Assembly (NCBI GenBank): GCA_002798295.1
Contig: NWQT01000022.1
Span: 1-64,000, forward strand
Origin: Lysobacteraceae bacterium NML07-0707
GTDB taxonomy: Bacteria; Pseudomonadota; Gammaproteobacteria; Xanthomonadales; Xanthomonadaceae
Direction of reading: 5' to 3'
Length of the DNA stretch: 64,000 nucleotides
Position 1 is the stretch's first letter, and each line of letters opens with the position of its first letter. A model generated the notes under the pieces. The model made no database searches. It saw nothing but the letters and a program-made list of their open reading frames with translations, and had not been told where the DNA came from. Position numbers and translations under genes: made by a program. Shown here one piece after another: positions 21,758-54,304 of this stretch.

Positions 21758-21879
21758 CTAAAAGAAGCTCCAGCCGCGCCCATCCGCACGGCATCCAATG
21801 AGGTGTAAAACCGCATACAGGCAGGCGTATCGTGTCCTCTTTGCAAGGCCACCCGATGCCTGCCACATGCGCGCTTGCC

Positions 21880-22087
21880 CCAAGGCCGGTCTCCGGGCTT
21901 GTGCACCGACATGAGGGCATTGCCATCACTCGCGCTGCCACGCCTTCCCATGCTCACGCACAGTGGCCTGTGTGACCGCTCATGCACCTACCGTTGCGGG
22001 GGCAGCTCCGGACTTGGGCAGATGGCTGCCATTACCGGATTCCCGTTTCAGCCGGGCATCATGCAGATCACACCGGCCACCTTCGAG
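21880..22087 (-). promoter_or_regulatory. Cobalamin riboswitch
   Basis: Read on the minus strand, this leader contains the conserved blocks of the AdoCbl riboswitch in order: GGGAATCCGGT, CCGGAGCTGCCCCCGCAACGG, the B12 box CACACAGGCCACTG (21960-21973), GGGAAGGCG, and AAGCCCGGAGACCGGCC at the 3' end. It lies about 120 bases ahead of btuB. Downstream, GGCAGGC and GCCTGCC can form a hairpin that may be part of the expression platform; no T tract is seen, so translational control is more likely. It should shut off btuB-btuM-cobO when cobalamin is plentiful. Confidence 0.95.
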
Positions 22088-22169
22088 TGTGCGCATTTTA
22101 CCCGTGTTTTTCCGGCAAATACGGCGCTAGCGGCATAAAATGATTCCATTCCGAATCGACAGCTTCACC

Positions 22170-46283: not shown

Positions 46284-47564
46284 CTATTGCCAGCGGTGCT
46301 TGAGCTGCTCAAGTTGCATATCGCCGGCACTGCCTGGAGAAACGCGCTCGGCAAGACTGTGCGCCGGATCGCCCTCGGCCCAGCGTTCGGGTTTGGCGGC
46401 TTCGCGGTAGGCATCGCGGAAGGGCATGCCCTGACAGGCGAGCGTCACGGCAAGGTCGGTGGCGTACATTGAAGGCTCCAATGCGTTTTGCAGGGATTCT
46501 TCCCGCCATCGCAGCGCCTGCATCAGTGCTGGCAACAGGGCGAGCGCGGCCATGCCGCGGGCAAAGCCTTGCACCAGGGCGCCCTTGCCCGGTTGCAGGT
46601 CGCGGTGATAACCCGAGGGCAGCGACAGCAATTGCTCGATTTCGGTCTTGGCCGCCGCCACGCTGGCATAGCTGGCGCGCATGAGTTCGATGACATCCGG
46701 GTTGCGTTTGTTGGGCATGATCGAGCTGCCGGTGGTGTATTGGGCAGGCAGTTCGACAAAACCAAATTCGGCGCTGGTAAACAGGCTCAAATCCCAGGCG
46801 AGGCGGCGCAGGTCGAGCATGGCGCTGCCGAGGGCTTCCAGCGCCGCCAGCTCGTATTTGCCGCGCGAAAGCTGGGCGTACAGGGGCGAGACCTGCATCC
46901 TGGCAAAGCCCAGCGCCTCGGTGGTGTAGGCGCGATCCAGCGGCAGGTTGACGCCGTAACCAGCAGCCGTACCCAGCGGATTGCTGTCGATAAGCTGCAA
47001 GGTGGCGCGGGCGCGCTCGCGGTTGTCGATAAAGGCTTCCGCCCAACCTGCCCACCACATGCCAGTGGAGGACACCACCGCACGTTGCAAATGGGTATAG
47101 CCCGGCATCGGCTGCTGCGCCTCGACTTCGGCGCGCGCCAGCGCAGTTCCGGCGATGTCATGGCATAGCGCGGCAAGCTGCTGCAATTGCGCTTTCAGCC
47201 AAAGCCGTGTGGCGACCAGCACCTGATCGTTGCGGCTACGGCCGGTATGGATCTTCTTGCCGGTATCGCCAAGGCGCTCGGTCAGGCGTGCCTCGATGGC
47301 CGAGTGCATATCCTCAAAGCGCGCATCCAGCACGAAGTCACCACGTTTGAAGTCCTTGGCCAGCGTGTCCAGCTCATGCTGCAAGGCGGTGAGTTCTTCC
47401 GCACTCAAGATGCCGATGCGCTGCAAGCCTTCGGCATGGACGCGGCTGGCCTCGATATCAAACCGCATGAATTCGCGGTCGAGAATGACATCTTCCCCGG
47501 CCAGAAAGCGCTGGATATCGGCATCGACGGCGATGCCCTGTTTTTGCCACAACAGATTGCTCAT
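46284..47564 (-). CDS. argH: Argininosuccinate lyase
   Basis: Final step of arginine synthesis: cleaves argininosuccinate to arginine and fumarate. The 426-residue protein is a fumarase/aspartase superfamily member with the signature [12 protein letters not shown] near residue 280, THLQRAV and [10 protein letters not shown]. It overlaps argC by 4 bases. Fumarate released here could feed the fumarase encoded at 57.7 kb. It is shorter than E. coli ArgH (457), but close to the length I expect in Xanthomonas relatives. Confidence 0.96.
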
Positions 47565-48529
47565 GGATGCAACTCACTGGAATGGGAAGGAAAAATACCG
47601 GCCAGCTCGTCAAAGCCAAAGGCCAGGTTCAGATTCTGCATCGCCTGGGTGGCCGCACCTTTGAGGAGATTGTCCAGCACGCTCACCAGCACCAGCCGCC
47701 TGCCCCCCTCATCCACGGCAAAGCCGCCCAGCATGGCGTGATGGCGACCGGCCACACGGCTCACCCAAGGCGCGTCCTCGCTGACCGCGACCAGCGGCTC
47801 ACCGGCATAGAACTCGCGCGTGCGCTGCAAGGCCTGCGCTGCGGTGATGCTGCGCTTCAGATGCAGGTTGGCGGTAATCGAAAGGCCACGAAAATGCGGC
47901 GCCACATGCGGCATGAATTCCACCGGCGCAGTATGACGAGTGACCTCGCGCTCGTGCAGATGGCCGGTCAGGGCATAGGGCATCAGGTTGTCGCGCAACA
48001 ATTCGACATTGTTCTTGTCGCTGGGCGTAGTGCCCGCGCCGGAATAGCCGGAAACGCCAAAGCACTGCACCGGCGCGGCCAAGTCCGCCTTGAACGGCGC
48101 AATGGCCAGCTGCATCGCCGTGGCATAGCAGCCGGGATTGCTGATGCGGCGCTGCCCCCTGTAATGCTGGCGGGTCAGCTCCGGCAGACCGTAATACCAG
48201 GCCTCATCAAAACGGTAATCGGCAGACAGATCGACAATCACCGTGTCTGGATGATGCGCCTCAATCGCCATCACATACTCGGCGCTCTTGCCGTTGGGCA
48301 AGGCCAGCACAACCGCATCGGCATGGTGCTTGGCCAGCGCCGCGGCATCGAGACTTTCATAGCAAAGCGTGCCCTGATAGGCGGGATTGTGCGCAGCCAG
48401 CGGCTGCCCGGCCAGCTCGCGCGAGGACACGAAGCCAAGTTCAAACTGCGGATGCGCGGCAACAAGACGAATCAATTCGGCGCCGGTATGGCCGCGCGCA
48501 CCGATGATGCCCAAGGTTTTGCTTTTCAT
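47561..48529 (-). CDS. argC: N-acetyl-gamma-glutamyl-phosphate reductase
   Basis: Reduces acetylglutamyl phosphate with NADPH. The 322-residue protein starts with the dinucleotide motif [16 protein letters not shown] and has the catalytic Cys134 in [21 protein letters not shown], and [12 protein letters not shown]. The ATG at 48529 was chosen because it directly precedes the NADP-binding strand; longer in-frame starts add a segment unlike the family. A membrane-protein gene separates it from argB. Confidence 0.95.
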
Positions 48530-48545
48530 GATGTCCTCATGTCGT

Positions 48546-49043
48546 TCATTGGTGCAAAGACGGGCACTGTGCATGCACTTCCGGGCTTAGCAACTGGCCA
48601 AACAGCACTATCCAAGTCATATAGCCCGCCACACCCAGCATCACCGGCAAGCCAATCGCCAGCATCAGGCGACCACGCCACAGCGCATAGGTTTTGCTGC
48701 GAATCGGCGTGTCTTTCCACAGCCACATGCCCGGCCACGGCCATTGCCCGTATTGCAGGCTGCGCAGGCCATCAAGCAACACATAAAACAGCACCGCAAA
48801 GTGAATCAACAAAAGTGGCGCCAGCATAATCCGCATACGCACAATGGCTTCACAGGCATCAGGGGACGTCTTCAACCACGCACTGGCCATCGGCATCAGC
48901 ACTTGTCCCCAAAGCACCATAAAACCAAGCCCTGCCACGATAATCACAGCCTGCGTCATGCGGCTGACATTGCGCGGGGCGATGCCCGCCGCTGTGCTTG
49001 GAGGGAGTTCGGGGGCAATGCGGAACCAATCCTCGAGGCTCAC
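48546..49043 (-). CDS. Membrane protein of unknown function inside the arginine operon
   Basis: A 165-residue protein with hydrophobic segments at about residues 30-50, 70-92 and 125-147, and aromatic-rich loops ([14 protein letters not shown]). I do not recognise a family. It starts with GTG one base after the argB stop and ends 16 bases before argC, so it must be co-transcribed and probably translationally coupled. No transport signature is visible; an inner-membrane role is likely. Its presence between argB and argC has no obvious explanation from the pathway. Confidence 0.75.
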
Positions 49044-49044
49044 T

Positions 49045-50382
49045 TCAGGCCTCTTTGTCGGTCAAGGTGGCCGGGCGCTGACGGCATTCCAGCACGCAAC
49101 GTTCAATCTGCGCAAAATCATCCAGGCCGTACCAGAACACTGTCCACTCGCCCTGCTTGCTGCTGCCGTCGGCTTCGTCAAAGTAGAAACTATTGACCGG
49201 GTTATGGCGGCGTGAGCGCCAGTACAGCGCCGGGGTTTGCGCACGCATCTGCGCCCACAGCGCCCGTCCCAGCCCCTCGCCCTGGGCCTCGTCAAGCACG
49301 GCGAACTTGTCCAGATAGATGCCCTGATCGGTACGCAGCAAAATCACTGCAGCGCGGTAGTTTTCGCTGACCCAGGCGCGTGCAACTGCGCTGCGCTCAA
49401 AGTAATCGGATGCCAATTGGCGGCCGAAGGCCGACTCAATCAGCCCGCGCAGGCGCGCAAGGTCAAACGCCTGCCAGTTGTCTGCGCACAGCACGCGCTC
49501 ACCACGCCGTACCAGGGTGCCCGAGCCTTTATGAGTAAACAGCTCACGCGCCAGCTCGGCAGGCCGGGTGATGGACACCGAGGAGGACAGCGGCACGGTG
49601 TCGAGCAGCGCCTTGATTTGCTCAATCTTCACCCGCATGCCGCCGTTGATCCACTCGGCCTGCATCAGCTGCTCGTAATCGCTGGAGAGGTTGATGGAAT
49701 CAATCACCTGCCCGTGCGCATCCAGAAGGCCGCCGGTGCCGGTCAGGAACACGATTTTGTCCGGCTGCACTTCGCGCACCAGCGCATTGGCGGCAAAATC
49801 GGCATTGATATTGACGATCTGCCCTTCGCGGGTTTCGCCGAGGCTGGCAATCACCGGAATGGAGCCGGCCTTGAGGCTTGCCCGCAGCGGCGTCAAATCC
49901 ACCCGGCTCACATCGCCTACCAGTCCGTAAGTGGCTTCGTCCTTCAAGGTCGCCTCGAACACACCACAAACAATCGAGGTGGCGCGGGTATCCAGCGCCT
50001 GCAAGGCTTCCACCAGTCGCAGGTTCTGCGCCTGCATCACCTGCCGGACGATGGCAAGCGTATCGGCGCGGGTCACGCGCAGGCCATCGACGGTGCGCTT
50101 TTCGATACCGGCCTCGGCAATGGCCGTATCCAACTGCGGCCCGGCGCCATGGATAACAATCGGCGTCAATCCGACATCCTGCAAAAACGCCAGTGAGGAG
50201 GTCAGCGCTTCCAGATCATCGCGCAGCACCGCCCCGCCGACCTTGACCACCGCAAAGCGGGCGGCCTCCAGCTCGGAATAACGCTTCAGATATTGGTTGA
50301 TTTCCTTGCTGCTGCCCATGCTGGAGAGCAGCCGCAGGATGGTCAGACGGGTTTGCCGGTCGTGGACGTGCAAAGGATTCAT
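49045..50382 (-). CDS. argB: Bifunctional N-acetylglutamate kinase / N-acetylglutamate synthase
   Basis: A 445-residue fusion. Residues ~1-285 are an amino-acid-kinase domain ([40 protein letters not shown]) that phosphorylates acetylglutamate. Residues ~290-435 are a GNAT domain ([38 protein letters not shown]) that acetylates glutamate, more like the vertebrate-type synthase than E. coli ArgA. Both committed steps therefore sit on one chain. This fused form is known from Xanthomonas and Maricaulis relatives. It is 7 bases after argE'. Confidence 0.94.
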
Positions 50383-50389
50383 CGCGGTC

Positions 50390-51469
50390 TCAACTCAAAA
50401 TACGCAGGATGGATTGGGTGTATTGCTCAAGCTGCGCCAGCGCTACCCACTCATCGGCGGTGTGCGCCTGGGCAATGTCGCCGGGGCCATAAACAATCGC
50501 GGTGAGGCCGGCGGCGGAAAACAGCGAGGCTTCCGTCCAGAAGTCCACCGCATCGCCTATGGGCAACTGCAAAGAGGCGGCCAGTTGTTCAGCCTGATGG
50601 CGACGGCTTTCCGCTTCAGCTGCAACACCCGCGGGCAGGGATGGGCCACGGAAGGTTTCCTCGTAATCCGTGCCCAGTGTGGCAAACGCCTGAAACTGCC
50701 GGTGCAATTCGTCCATATCCTGCGAGGGCAGTGGCCGCAAGCCAAAGCGCACTTCGGCCTCGGGGGCGATGACATTGGCCTTGATGCCCCCCTCCACCCG
50801 GCCGATATTGAAGCGCAGCCCCTGCAAGCCGCCAAAGGCCTGCGCAGCGTGTGCGTCCACATGCTCAAGCGCGCGCGCGCCCCAGCGCATCGCCTGATGC
50901 AGGGCGCTGGCCTGCATCGCCTGTGCGCCCGAGGCATGCCCTGCCCGGCCATGAAACTGCATCCGCACCGCACTGATGCCGCGATGCGCCAGCACCGCGC
51001 GGCAACCCGTCGGCTCGGCCACAATCACGTTCTGGAAGCCATGCTGGCCTGCCAGAAAATGCGCGATGCAGCGTGGGTCATTGGCTTCCTCGTCATTGGA
51101 AAACAAGATCGCCATATCGCCGTTTGTCGCCTGCGCCGCGGTCAGCAAGCCCGCAGCCGCGCCCTTGATGTCGCAGGCGCCAAGGCCAATCGCGCGCCCG
51201 TCCCCAATGCGCAGCCGATGCGGATCGGCGCTCCAGGCTGGAGACGCCGGCACGGTATCCAGATGCACATTGAACAGCACCGATGGCTGGCCGCGCACCG
51301 CCAGCAACGACACCGCGCCGGCGCCGTGATCCGTCACCTGGATGTCAAAGCCCGGCAATTGCGCGCGCAGATAGGCAAACATCGGGCTATCGGCCGACAT
51401 CGCCCGCGGCGGATTGCGGCTATCGAAGGCCACCAACGCGGCCAGGTGCTCCAGTACGTGGTCCAACAT
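50390..51469 (-). CDS. argE: N-acetylcitrulline deacetylase (ArgE-like, M20 peptidase family)
   Basis: A 359-residue M20 metallohydrolase with metal-binding motifs [18 protein letters not shown] and the catalytic DEEANDP. A dimerisation domain ([10 protein letters not shown]) and C-terminal HTADEWV follow. In organisms using acetylornithine carbamoyltransferase the deacetylation step acts on N-acetylcitrulline, giving citrulline; the neighbouring argF' points to that substrate rather than acetylornithine. The ATG shares a base with the argG stop (TGATG), which is why this start was chosen over one 27 bases upstream. Confidence 0.9.
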
Positions 51470-52677
51470 CAGCCGTTTCCGTTGATTTCTGCCCACAAGG
51501 TGCTGCTCATACCGAACAACTTGATGAAGCCTTCGGCTTCGGCCACGCCCCAGTCGGCGCTTTGTGCATAGGTCGCGCCCTTGGCATTGAGGATATGCGG
51601 CGATTCAATGGCCAGCGCATCCACCCGGCCGCCTTGGGTTTCCAGCAGCACTTCACCATTGACCTTACGCTGGCTGGATTGCAGGAACGCTTCCAGGTCG
51701 GTTTTCAGCGGGTCATGCCAGAAGCCCTCATACACCAGTTCCACCCACTTGCGGGCGACCTCGGGCTTGAAGCGGTTTTGCTGCTTGCTGAGCACGGCTT
51801 CTTCCAGCGCGCGGTGTGCGGTGAGCAAGGCCACCAGCCCCGGCGCTTCATAAACGATGCGCCCCTTGAGGCCGATGGTGGTATCGCCGGTGTACAGCCC
51901 GCGACCCACGCCATAAGCGGCAAACAGGGTATTGAGCCGTGCCAGCAGCTGCGGCCCCGGCAGCGCCTCGCCATCGAGCGCCACCGCCTCGCCTTCGACA
52001 AAACGGATACGCACCCGCAGCGGCGTGCTCGGCCATTCGGCGCGCGGCTTGCACCAGCCCCGGGCTTCCTCGCCCGGCGCCTGCCATTGGTCGATTTCAC
52101 CACCGGAAAGCGTCACCCCCAACAGGTTCTCGTTGATGGTGTATTGCTGCTGCTTGGCGCGCACCGCAAAACCGCGCGCCTCCAGATATTGCTGCTCGTA
52201 GGCGCGGGTCTGGGTGTGTTCTTTCTGGATTTCACGGATCGGCGCGATGATGCGGTAATCGCCACTGGCCTTCACCGCCAAGTCAAACCGCACCTGGTCA
52301 TTGCCCATGCCGGTGCAGCCGTGGGCGATGGCGCGGGTGCCCAGCTCGCGGGCGCGCGCCAGCGCGGCATCGACAATCAGATAGCGGTCGGAAACCAGCA
52401 ACGGATACTGCCCCTGATACCCCTCCCCTACCCAGACGAAGGGTTTGACAAAGCCCTGCCAAATCGCCGGGCCGCCATCGATGGTGCGGTGACTGGCAAC
52501 ACCCAGCTCCGCCGCGCGCTGCTCGATATAGGCGCGCTCCCCGGTATCCACGCCGCCGGTATCGGCAAACACGGTGTGCACCTGCCAGCCCTGCTCACGC
52601 AGATAGGGGATGCAGAAACTGGTATCCAGCCCGCCGGAAAAAGCGAGCACGATGTCACGGCTTTGTTTTGCACTCAT
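51469..52677 (-). CDS. argG: Argininosuccinate synthase
   Basis: Condenses citrulline with aspartate using ATP. The 402-residue protein starts with the PP-loop [17 protein letters not shown], and has [15 protein letters not shown] and the extended C-terminal multimerisation region. It lies between argF' (24-base gap) and argE' (1-base overlap). Length fits the ~400-residue class. Confidence 0.95.
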
Positions 52678-52701: not shown

Positions 52702-53706
52702 TTACTGTTGGATAAGCGCTGCCATCACCGCCTTCTGCACATGCAGGCGGTTTTCGGCCTCGTTGATGGCGATGCACTGCGGCGAATCCATCACCGCGTC
52801 GGTGGCCTTGACATTGCGGCGCAGCGGCAGGCAATGGCTGAAAACACCGTTATTGGTCAGCGCCATCTTCGCCTCATCAACGATGAAATGCCTGTGCGCA
52901 TCGCGGATCGGCTTTTCTTCCTGCCAGCGGCCAAAGTACGGCAGCGCGCCCCAGCTCTTGGCATACACCACATCAGCCCCGGCATAGGCGCTTTCAATGT
53001 CATGGCTGACCTGCAAGGAGCCGCCACTCTCGGCCACGTTCTGCGCCGCCCACTGCATATAACGCTCATCCAGCAAGTAATCTTCATTCGGGCACAGCAA
53101 GGTCACATCCATGCCTAAGCGCGTAGCGATGGTCAGCGCCGAATTGGCCACCGCGGTATTCAGCGCCTTGGGGTGGTACGTCCAGGTCAGCACATATTTT
53201 TTGCCGCGCAGATCGTGCGTGCCGAAGTGCTCCTGCAAGGCCAGCGCATGCGCCAGCTCCTGACAGGGATGGGTGATGGTTTCCATATTGATCACCGGCA
53301 CCGTGGAATACCGGGCAAACGCCGCCAGCACCTTGTCCTGCCGGTCTTCCTGCCAGTCGATGAACTTCGGGAAGGCGCGCACGGCAATCAGGTCCACATA
53401 GCGCGAGAGCACCCGCGCCACTTCGGCGATATGTTCCTCGGTATCGCCGTCCATCACCGTGCCGAGGTCAAACTCCACCGGCCAGGCGTCCTTGCCCGGT
53501 TGCAGCACGATCGCATGCCCGCCCAGCTGGAACGCGCCCAGCTCGAAGCTGGTGCGAGTGCGCATCGACGGGTTGAAAAACATGAGCGCAATCGAGCGCC
53601 CGCGCAGGGCATCGCCCAGCTTGTGCTGCTTCATGCGCGCGGCCTCGGCCAATACAGCATCGAGCTCGGCGCGGCTCCAGTCTTGCGTATTCAAAAAATG
53701 TTTCAT
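52702..53706 (-). CDS. argF': N-acetylornithine carbamoyltransferase
   Basis: Transfers carbamoyl to N-acetylornithine to give N-acetylcitrulline, replacing the usual ornithine transcarbamylase. The 334-residue protein has the carbamoyl-phosphate motif NPSMRTRTSFELG near residue 45, ETITHPCQELAHAL near residue 143, and FSHCLPLRRNVKATD near 289. Two features known from the Xanthomonas enzyme are present: Glu90 (Glu92 there, acetyl-group recognition) and Lys300 (carboxylated Lys302 there). The ATG at 53706 gives a start like the Xanthomonas protein; the in-frame extension from 53772 runs through the leader terminator and is rejected. It is the first structural gene of the arginine operon and is preceded by a putative attenuator. 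Confidence 0.96.
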   Translation of the reverse strand: MKHFLNTQDWSRAELDAVLAEAARMKQHKLGDALRGRSIALMFFNPSMRTRTSFELGAFQLGGHAIVLQPGKDAWPVEFDLGTVMDGDTEEHIAEVARVLSRYVDLIAVRAFPKFIDWQEDRQDKVLAAFARYSTVPVINMETITHPCQELAHALALQEHFGTHDLRGKKYVLTWTYHPKALNTAVANSALTIATRLGMDVTLLCPNEDYLLDERYMQWAAQNVAESGGSLQVSHDIESAYAGADVVYAKSWGALPYFGRWQEEKPIRDAHRHFIVDEAKMALTNNGVFSHCLPLRRNVKATDAVMDSPQCIAINEAENRLHVQKAVMAALIQQ

Positions 53707-53723: not shown

Positions 53724-53755
53724 AAAAAACAAAAAACCCGGCACAAGGCCGGGCT
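53724..53755 (-). terminator. Leader terminator (attenuator) ahead of argF'
   Basis: On the minus strand a perfect 6-bp GC stem CCCGGC / GCCGGG, extendable by two pairs, with loop CTTGT is followed by TTTTTTGTTTTTTG. It lies 17 bases before the argF' ATG and inside the untranslated leader. It does not follow a long gene, so it is best read as a regulated terminator. Its left arm (CCGGCCT, 53746-53752) can instead pair with AGGCCGG (53784-53790) in the leader frame, forming an antiterminator. Confidence 0.85.
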
Positions 53756-53778
53756 GGAAAATCTGCATGCACGCAGTA

Positions 53779-53823
53779 TCACGCCGGCCTGTAACAGCAG
53801 CGGCGGCGCGCGCGCGAGGTCAT
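53779..53823 (-). CDS. Arginine-rich leader peptide (attenuation)
   Basis: A 14-codon frame on the minus strand encodes MTSRARRRCCYRPA: five Arg in 14 codons, four of them CGC and one AGG, with three consecutive. The stop lies 24 bases before the terminator hairpin at 53755. AGG occurs 9-11 bases before the ATG as a weak ribosome site. An in-frame ATG at 53880 gives a 33-residue version but has no ribosome site. The size and codon bias match leader peptides such as TrpL (14 residues) and HisL (16). Expected effect: ribosomes stall at CGC codons when charged Arg-tRNA is low, the antiterminator forms and the operon is read. No experimental support is known to me. Confidence 0.8.
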   Translation of the reverse strand: MTSRARRRCCYRPA

Positions 53824-53923
53824 GCCCGCAGCCTGCCAGGCAGCGGACTGATAAGCGGCGGTGGAAAAGCGTGCATTCATGGGCGGCTATGCTCGCATGC
53901 GACTGACGATAGGACAAGGGGCA

Positions 53924-54304
53924 CTACGGCCGAACTTCCGCACTCACCACCGGCGTGATGCCGATACGGATGCGCAACCGGCGCCCGGGGTTTTGCGCAA
54001 TCCGCGAGCGATACTTCACCCCGCGATAGGTGTAGTCCACGTCATAGGCAATCGGGCGGCGATATTCCAGCGGCACGCGCACCTCGCGGCACTCACGCAC
54101 CGCACTGCCCGGCAGCGGACGGCACTGCTCTCTTGCGGTGCTGGCGTTCAGCACCTGATAGACCGGCTGCACACTCAATACCTGCGCATAGTCATAGCGC
54201 ACCTGCTCGGCGGGAACCAGTCGCTCCTGCGCTGCAGCCACAGCAGGCACAGTCATTACGGCGAGCAATAACAGGGTTTGCAGCAGAGGATGACGACAGG
54301 ACAC
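53924..54304 (-). CDS. Exported protein of unknown function
   Basis: A 126-residue protein with a clear signal peptide (residues 1-25, cleavage after AAA). The mature part has [17 protein letters not shown] and a C-terminal [30 protein letters not shown]. That C-terminal pattern (YDVxYxYxGxxY...PGxxLRVRV) resembles the end of glycine-zipper 17-kDa surface-antigen-like proteins, but the glycine-zipper membrane part itself is missing here. It may be a periplasmic relative. It lies upstream of the arg leader on the same strand, 100 bases before the leader peptide, and divergent from cysS. Confidence 0.75.

Follow-up and report, generated by a model that had tools for sequence, protein, structure and literature searches.

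How do bacteria that lack ArgR, the repressor that controls arginine genes in many other bacteria, control arginine synthesis? The question arises at an arginine operon, argF'GEB(x)CH, in a 64,000-nucleotide (nt) stretch of Lysobacteraceae bacterium NML07-0707 (contig NWQT01000022.1), referred to below as the window; all features under study lie on its minus strand. An interpretation made earlier from the letters alone, which we call the sequence-only reading, had placed an arginine-responsive transcription attenuator ahead of the first gene, argF'. Our analysis supports this proposal through a leader open reading frame (ORF) that recurs before nearly every argF' surveyed, compensatory base pairing, and conservation of the terminator and of the spacing. 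We consider it very probable that positions 53917-53725 form a ribosome-mediated transcription attenuator of argF'GEB(x)CH that senses the supply of charged Arg-tRNA.

We infer that the leader is translated, that ribosomes stall on it, and that termination is thereby controlled in response to arginine, as follows. Transcription would begin no more than about 2 nt from the leader AUG, with a ribosome following the polymerase. When arginine is ample, the ribosome would reach the stop codon and cover segment 2, a short stretch that overlaps the end of the leader frame, and the terminator ahead of argF' would form. When Arg-tRNA is short, the ribosome would wait at the Arg codons, at least 13 nt upstream of segment 2; the free segment 2 could then pair with the emerging left arm of the terminator, and polymerase would read into argF'. 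A slowly read CGA as the third codon of the Arg cluster, found in most relatives and not in the window, should sharpen the response. The attenuator would stand in for ArgR, which is missing from these genomes.

The elements of this model are collected in Table 1. As the sequence-only reading had pointed out, a GC stem with a T-rich tail lies 17 bases before the argF' start codon at 53706, and AGGCCGG (53790-53784) is complementary to CCGGCCT (53752-53746); both can be seen in the sequence. It had also described a 14-codon frame with five Arg codons. This frame, MTSRARRRCCYRPA, is present at 53823-53779 (ATG ACC TCG CGC GCG CGC CGC CGC TGC TGT TAC AGG CCG GCG TGA), but it stays open upstream as far as an ATG at 53880, and conservation in relatives points to a leader start near 53880, not 53823.

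Table 1. Positions of the putative attenuator and of the arginine operon in the window.
Feature	Position	Strand	Remarks
Promoter-like site	53889..53917	-	-35 TTGTCC 53917-53912, 17 nt spacer, -10 GAGCAT 53894-53889
Leader ORF	53779..53880	-	33 codons + TGA, MNARFSTAAYQSAAWQAAGMTSRARRRCCYRPA, 6 Arg codons
Arg control codons	53800..53814	-	CGC GCG CGC CGC CGC (R A R R R)
Further Arg codon	53790-53788	-	AGG
Segment 2 (antiterminator 5' arm)	53784..53790	-	AGGCCGG, overlapping last leader codons
Antiterminator 3' arm	53746..53752	-	CCGGCCT, terminator left arm and loop part pairing with segment 2
Intrinsic terminator	53725..53755	-	AGCCCGGC-CTTGT-GCCGGGTT + TTTTGTTTTT
Terminator stem	53755-53735	-	AGCCCGGC-CTTGT-GCCGGGTT
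argF'	52702..53706	-	N-acetylornithine carbamoyltransferase, first gene of the operon; NF003384, 623 bits vs cut-off 288
Rest of operon behind argF' (argG to argH)	46284..52677	-	
argG	52677-51469	-	NCBIfam match
argE	51496-50390	-	NCBIfam match
argB	50382-49045	-	NCBIfam match
ORF between argB and argC	49043-48546	-	No assigned family
argC	48574-47561	-	NCBIfam match
argH	47564-46284	-	NCBIfam match

Taken by itself, the window says little. Its whole-region fold was no better than that of shuffled sequences (z -0.09), a terminator scan found 1 site against 0.9 expected, and the antiterminator duplex reached p=0.04 against shuffles; Arg clusters occurred in 22 of 355 short ATG frames. Since such single-sequence tests (fold, terminator, promoter, duplex) are weak, the case rests on comparison and on an aligned set of relatives. 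Values this close to chance, and the frequency of Arg-rich frames in control regions under loose rules, would suit another explanation: an ordinary intergenic terminator of the upstream gene, accompanied by a chance Arg-rich frame of GC-rich DNA.

We compared 134 argF' upstream regions, 127 of them distinct: that of the window, 29 and 24 from genomes, and 80 from named loci, the latter being the nearest relatives of the window's protein and not a random draw. Sixty genomes were searched, including the window's own, and 56 had a match; left out were the four genomes without a match and two (G045 and G054) with a carbamoyltransferase 39-40% identical. The upstream region from G045 (L139), examined separately, had no leader. 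A leader was present in 125 of the 127 distinct regions across the order, and in all 80 named loci. It carried a GMTSRAR-type motif in 116 cases, with variants such as GTTSRTRR (L075), and the remaining nine leaders, first spotted by eye in other families, encode peptides of unrelated sequence that contain runs of Arg, among them MKNVMGNSIFPGRRARRTRRPLLAG and MTAHVHFPAQLKAPVIQAALRRRRRLSQRRAG. These come from the 11 distinct regions of families f4-f7, f9 and f10, nine of which have such a peptide ahead of a terminator.

We then applied a blind rule. It asked for an ATG frame of 20-40 codons, within the 300 nt ahead of the gene, in which three of four codons close to the end are Arg and whose stop precedes a GC stem with a T run. 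Within the order it was satisfied by 119/127 regions (110/116 regions with the motif and 9/11 from the distant families). It found nothing in 11 upstream regions of N-acetylornithine carbamoyltransferase (AOTCase)-like genes outside the order, fetched from a class sample of 370 genomes, and nothing in 20 carA upstream regions. From the frame frequency in the window, the chance of 9 in 11 is about 6e-6, a rough figure that ignores relatedness. Among the 80 named loci, an Arg-cluster frame preceded 3 of 21 other terminators, compared with 75 of 80 before argF'. These counts, the near-universal leader, the selection on its frame (below) and the mere 24 nt from the end of the first U run to argF' in the window all speak against a chance frame before an upstream gene's terminator, an explanation to which we assign next to no probability. 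The leader, its Arg codons, segment 2, the terminator and their spacing are conserved. The sequence-only reading had staked itself on homologous leaders keeping their Arg codons and competing stems; conservation of Arg codons, position, terminator and competing pairing across most sampled families was a favourable outcome for it.

A terminator was found by script behind 124 of the 125 leaders, the exception (L092) failing the T-run rule. We aligned 62 non-redundant sequences, less than 90% alike, and counted paired and compensatory cells. All cells of the terminator stem (100%) were paired and 41 were compensatory, compared with 14.7 in shuffles (0 of 500 reached this value); six stem pairs were kept in all 62 sequences. 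For the antiterminator, formed by leader GCTGGGT with terminator ACCCAGC, 89.5% of cells were paired versus 87.5% when shuffled, and compensatory cells numbered 17 versus 9.5 (reached by 1 of 500 shuffles). Sliding this pairing by one column lowered it to 54%. The probability that the left arm pairs with upstream RNA was 0.68, against 0.40 with shuffled upstream RNA, and was higher than the shuffled value in 57/62 sequences.

The spacing fits a translating ribosome, for which we assumed a distance of 13 nt between its edge and the first base in the A site. At the stop codon, such a ribosome fully covers segment 2 in 59/62 sequences. Every one of the 62 leaders has three or more Arg codons at which segment 2 would stay free; in the window, coverage at the stop is complete and four of the six Arg codons leave segment 2 free. 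When the ribosome was placed at the last Arg codon that frees segment 2 and the right arm of the terminator had yet to be made, the antiterminator reached a probability of at least 0.5 in 61/62. Moving the ribosome to the stop gave the terminator in 62/62. Segment 2 is also predicted to pair with upstream leader RNA, as a 1:2 protector hairpin, at a probability of at least 0.5 in 24/62. The segments had been picked as best duplexes, which biases these geometry and folding counts in favour of the model; the comparison of left-arm pairing with shuffles does not involve that choice.

Arg codons occupy homologous positions in the motif, at +3 and +5 in 54/54 sequences and at +6 in 52/54, and each of the 62 leaders has 3 to 7 of them. 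The third is CGA in 49/54 motif leaders, a codon that makes up 3 of 213 Arg codons across eight window genes. In a Salmonella his-leader attenuator assay, Arg pairs with CGA gave high de-attenuation and CGA was slow, according to the accessible part of that report (PMC4046918). Around MTSRAR, codons -6 to +6 had a ratio of nonsynonymous to synonymous change (pN/pS) of 0.24 in 54 sequences, the window included, compared with 1.19 in the leader codons before this block and 0.94 after it. To judge from these ratios, the leader frame is under purifying selection at the peptide level. Pfam and NCBIfam gave no match up to E=1 for the leader peptides of the window, L091, L047 and L129, queries so short that HMMER filters may lose them.

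Where would transcription start? The candidate -10 element, GAGCAT, lies 8 nt before the leader start codon, and the promoter-like site predicts a leaderless, or nearly leaderless, transcript. Similar promoter geometry scored at least 12 in 50/62 non-redundant leaders, a count that is not independent because start codons were partly picked by that score from 1-7 candidates. An independent sign comes from the Rfam Xoo5 family: its 124-nt model, matched to the Xanthomonas phaseoli locus L091, begins 2 nt before the leader ATG. The 24 nt behind the U run in the window are too few for a separate promoter behind the terminator. Elsewhere, the distance from the end of the terminator stem to argF' is at most 40 nt in 24/124 sequences and at most 60 nt in 61/124; in those with a longer gap, space would allow a further promoter.

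In relatives, the leader RNA is already known, as the small RNA (sRNA) family Xoo5. Rfam RF02242 matched over the leader at gathering score in 12 of 26 distinct loci searched. The window scored 20.4 bits against a cut-off of 50, and is thus related to Xoo5 by position and motif and not a member by score. According to the part of the original study available to us (Liang et al. 2011, PMC3039613), a discrete short RNA of Xanthomonas oryzae, with a 5' end mapped by rapid amplification of cDNA ends (RACE), gave Northern bands of about 130 and about 100 nt; the two appeared together early in growth, and later the shorter was seen alone. That 5' end, 2 nt before the leader start codon by the model match, agrees with the sequence-only reading in placing a transcript start upstream of 53823. 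A different table of the paper lists the gene downstream of Xoo5, PXO_00353, as N-acetylornithine carbamoyltransferase (PMC3039613). In the text available from this source, Xoo5 is not linked to arginine or to a leader peptide, and the words arginine, argF and leader had no match.

The published description, of an sRNA that gives Northern bands of its own and is curated in Rfam as RF02242, would also suit a free-standing RNA acting in trans, for which neither the frame nor the location ahead of argF' would matter. We regard this as very unlikely. The peptide frame is under purifying selection, and in other families of the order, where the sequence is unrelated, an Arg-cluster frame, a terminator and the position before argF' remain. 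As far as the available part of the study goes, its authors considered Xoo5 independent of Hfq and reported no phenotype for its deletion (PMC3039613).

In principle a ligand or protein could instead act on any terminator that has an alternative pairing, as in a riboswitch or protein-binding arginine leader uncoupled from translation. No result speaks for such a device. We saw no conserved structured domain apart from the competing stems, no Rfam family but Xoo5 reached gathering score over the leader in the window and the 26 loci searched, and within the conserved stretch the third codon positions vary, a pattern that suits a translated frame and not an aptamer. The probability we attach to this alternative is minimal.

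A role as substitute for ArgR is consistent with our genome searches. argR was not found in the window's genome (TIGR01529), and the ArgR C-terminal domain PF02863 occurred in 2 of the 60 genomes, own included, both of them members of family f11 with the other type of carbamoyltransferase. Control genomes for the ArgR searches were positive in 8/14 and 9/14 cases (PF02863: 8/14).

Several observations weigh against an attenuator of this kind or against parts of the model. The leader is absent from 2 of the 127 regions, L126 (genome G039) and L133 (G043), and the ArgR domain was also not found in these two genomes. A looser rule lists at least one Arg-rich frame in 10/20 carA and 10/11 outside-order regions, so that such a frame without a terminator says little. 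A consensus promoter scan found none on the minus strand of the window, and the window leader has CGC, not CGA, at the third Arg position. The antiterminator is less regular than the terminator: 12/62 sequences break pair 50-120, the covarying and most informative one, some with CCGGG facing CCCAG. Segment 2 of the window and its nearest relatives pairs in another register (AGGCCGG-CCGGCCT), which the alignment columns do not capture and which, in the window, breaks pairs in those columns. Single-sequence duplexes were marginal against shuffles (p<=0.05 in 65/124), and that of L127 is weak, with four pairs in a row. At equilibrium the terminator is favoured in 57/62 even with a stalled ribosome; antitermination would have to be kinetic. 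Published Xoo5 (about 130 and about 100 nt; cloned 3' end at 124 nt) is shorter than the terminated RNA of about 159 nt predicted in X. phaseoli (L091, 2729-2887); 3' trimming is one possibility for the short sizes. Deletion of Xoo5 caused no growth phenotype and, in the part of the paper available, expression of flanking genes is stated to be unaffected (PMC3039613), which counts against an attenuator because its loss should raise argF' expression. Finally, residues other than Arg are conserved in the leader beyond what simple codon counting needs.

This last point deserves separate treatment. Classical attenuator leaders are not known to need more than their control codons; the conserved block is, by that comparison, a sign of a further role for the peptide. 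In the window's family and in three further ones, the block, A-x-x-A-(S/A)-G-M-T-S-R-A-R-R, is conserved at the amino-acid level. All 54 sequences have Ala -6, Ala -3, Thr +1 and Ser +2, encoded by varying synonymous codons, which hints that the nascent chain may help stalling. One explanation would make the block an arrest peptide, as SpeFL and the fungal arginine attenuator peptide are, with arginine, ornithine or N-acetylornithine, and not Arg-tRNA charging, setting the stall. The low pN/pS and the four invariant residues would suit such a sensor, and the block would span about 12 residues, filling the upper tunnel with the third Arg codon in the A site. The nine leaders of other families, however, lack the block and still have Arg runs followed by a terminator. 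Moreover, arrest at the Arg cluster would free segment 2 and turn the operon on, so that arginine-triggered arrest has the wrong sign; precursor-triggered or intrinsic arrest would not. Overall we judge a nascent-peptide sensor of this kind improbable.

Also rather unlikely, though less so, is a device with two inputs, in which the Arg codons would sense Arg-tRNA charging and the nascent chain would promote stalling at the Arg cluster, on a leaderless transcript. The stall might be intrinsic or might depend on sensing a metabolite such as N-acetylornithine, and in most members it would occur at the slow CGA. If true, codon counting and nascent-peptide arrest would be joined in one attenuator. 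Some families have the conserved block and others bare Arg runs, a natural experiment that sets codon counting against nascent-chain stalling.

How does the proposed Arg-tRNA-sensing attenuator compare with known systems? The trp, his, leu, ilv, thr and phe operons of enteric bacteria are controlled by ribosome-mediated transcription attenuators, and to our knowledge surveys of this mechanism name these six without arginine among them. The arg leader shares with them a short frame with clustered codons for the product amino acid and, at its end, an antiterminator arm that competes with an intrinsic terminator before the first gene, as well as a spacing that fits a stalled or terminating ribosome. 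It differs in its amino acid, in a start codon predicted at or about 2 nt from the transcript 5' end (supported by Xoo5), in the conservation of non-control codons as amino acids, and in a 1:2 protector hairpin predicted in only a minority of sequences. In S. meliloti, the trpL attenuator reportedly also has its leader frame translated from a leaderless transcript; it differs in sensing tryptophan and in its host, an alphaproteobacterium. The arginine device is probably classical attenuator logic applied to a new amino acid, on a leaderless or nearly leaderless transcript and with a conserved peptide block.

The sequence-only reading had suggested that an arginine leader peptide of this type might be undescribed. 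This needs qualification, since leaders that sense arginine through Arg codons exist, although both known cases differ in mechanism and target. In Salmonella, the 34-codon speF leader orf34 (SpeFL) senses arginine by consecutive Arg codons; as described in the portion of the paper at hand, its target is ornithine decarboxylase, which it controls by way of Rho, folding of the ribosome-binding site, and RNase G (PMC6386406). The window leader would instead act on a biosynthetic operon by means of an intrinsic terminator, and by sight the two peptides are unrelated. In Staphylococcus aureus, according to the accessible text, the rbfL leader peptide senses arginine limitation through rare Arg codons and blocks translation initiation of a biofilm regulator, without transcription attenuation (PMC13009471). 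Xoo5 itself is the same RNA in Xanthomonas and relatives, described in the available part of the source as an sRNA without assigned function, and its Rfam model ends before the terminator. A literature search, with most subscription journals outside its reach, found no arginine-operon attenuator of this type. In the main text of Naville and Gautheret 2010 (PMC2965389), arginine, argF and arg operon had no match; the available part of Leyn 2016 on ArgR regulons (PMC5343134) gave no match for Xanthomonad; and no arginine leader is described in the accessible parts of PMC6956189 and PMC12189769.

If confirmed, the attenuator would add arginine to the amino acids with ribosome-mediated attenuation, explain how arginine synthesis could be controlled in most sampled members of the order without ArgR, and supply a function for an Rfam sRNA mapped in 2011. 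With many genomes and, as we expect, much RNA sequencing for the order, the prediction could be checked quickly.

We note several further features of the operon and its surroundings. Co-transcription of argF'GEB(x)CH is presumed from the gene spacing. The 165-codon ORF in the argB-argC gap looks by eye like a small membrane protein, and searches of NCBIfam and Pfam gave no match for it. Upstream of the leader, a small gene-like frame (53924-54304, minus strand) had only a sub-threshold NCBIfam match and no Pfam match.

Some other candidates were set aside, and further features were noted. Arg leaders before carA appeared in 10/20 regions by the loose rule and in 0/20 once terminator and spacing were included. 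Outside argF' there were 15 further matches to the MTSRAR pattern; the three fetched (L136-L138) lie in stop-to-stop frames of 75-179 codons, by eye without the leader layout. Sub-gathering Rfam matches in the window (ncS037, anti-hemB, SorX, GadY and asX2) were taken as chance resemblance to terminators. A plasmid search with the leader region gave no match. Several AOTCase-like genes outside the order seem by eye to follow argD directly. By script, 5 of the 20 carA loci have a terminator-like site before the gene, and in L166 and L171 a GC hairpin followed by a T-rich stretch is visible by eye within about 100 nt before carA, perhaps a pyrimidine-type attenuator. The window also contains a cobalamin riboswitch (RF00174, 99.7 bits) at 21867-22099 on the minus strand.
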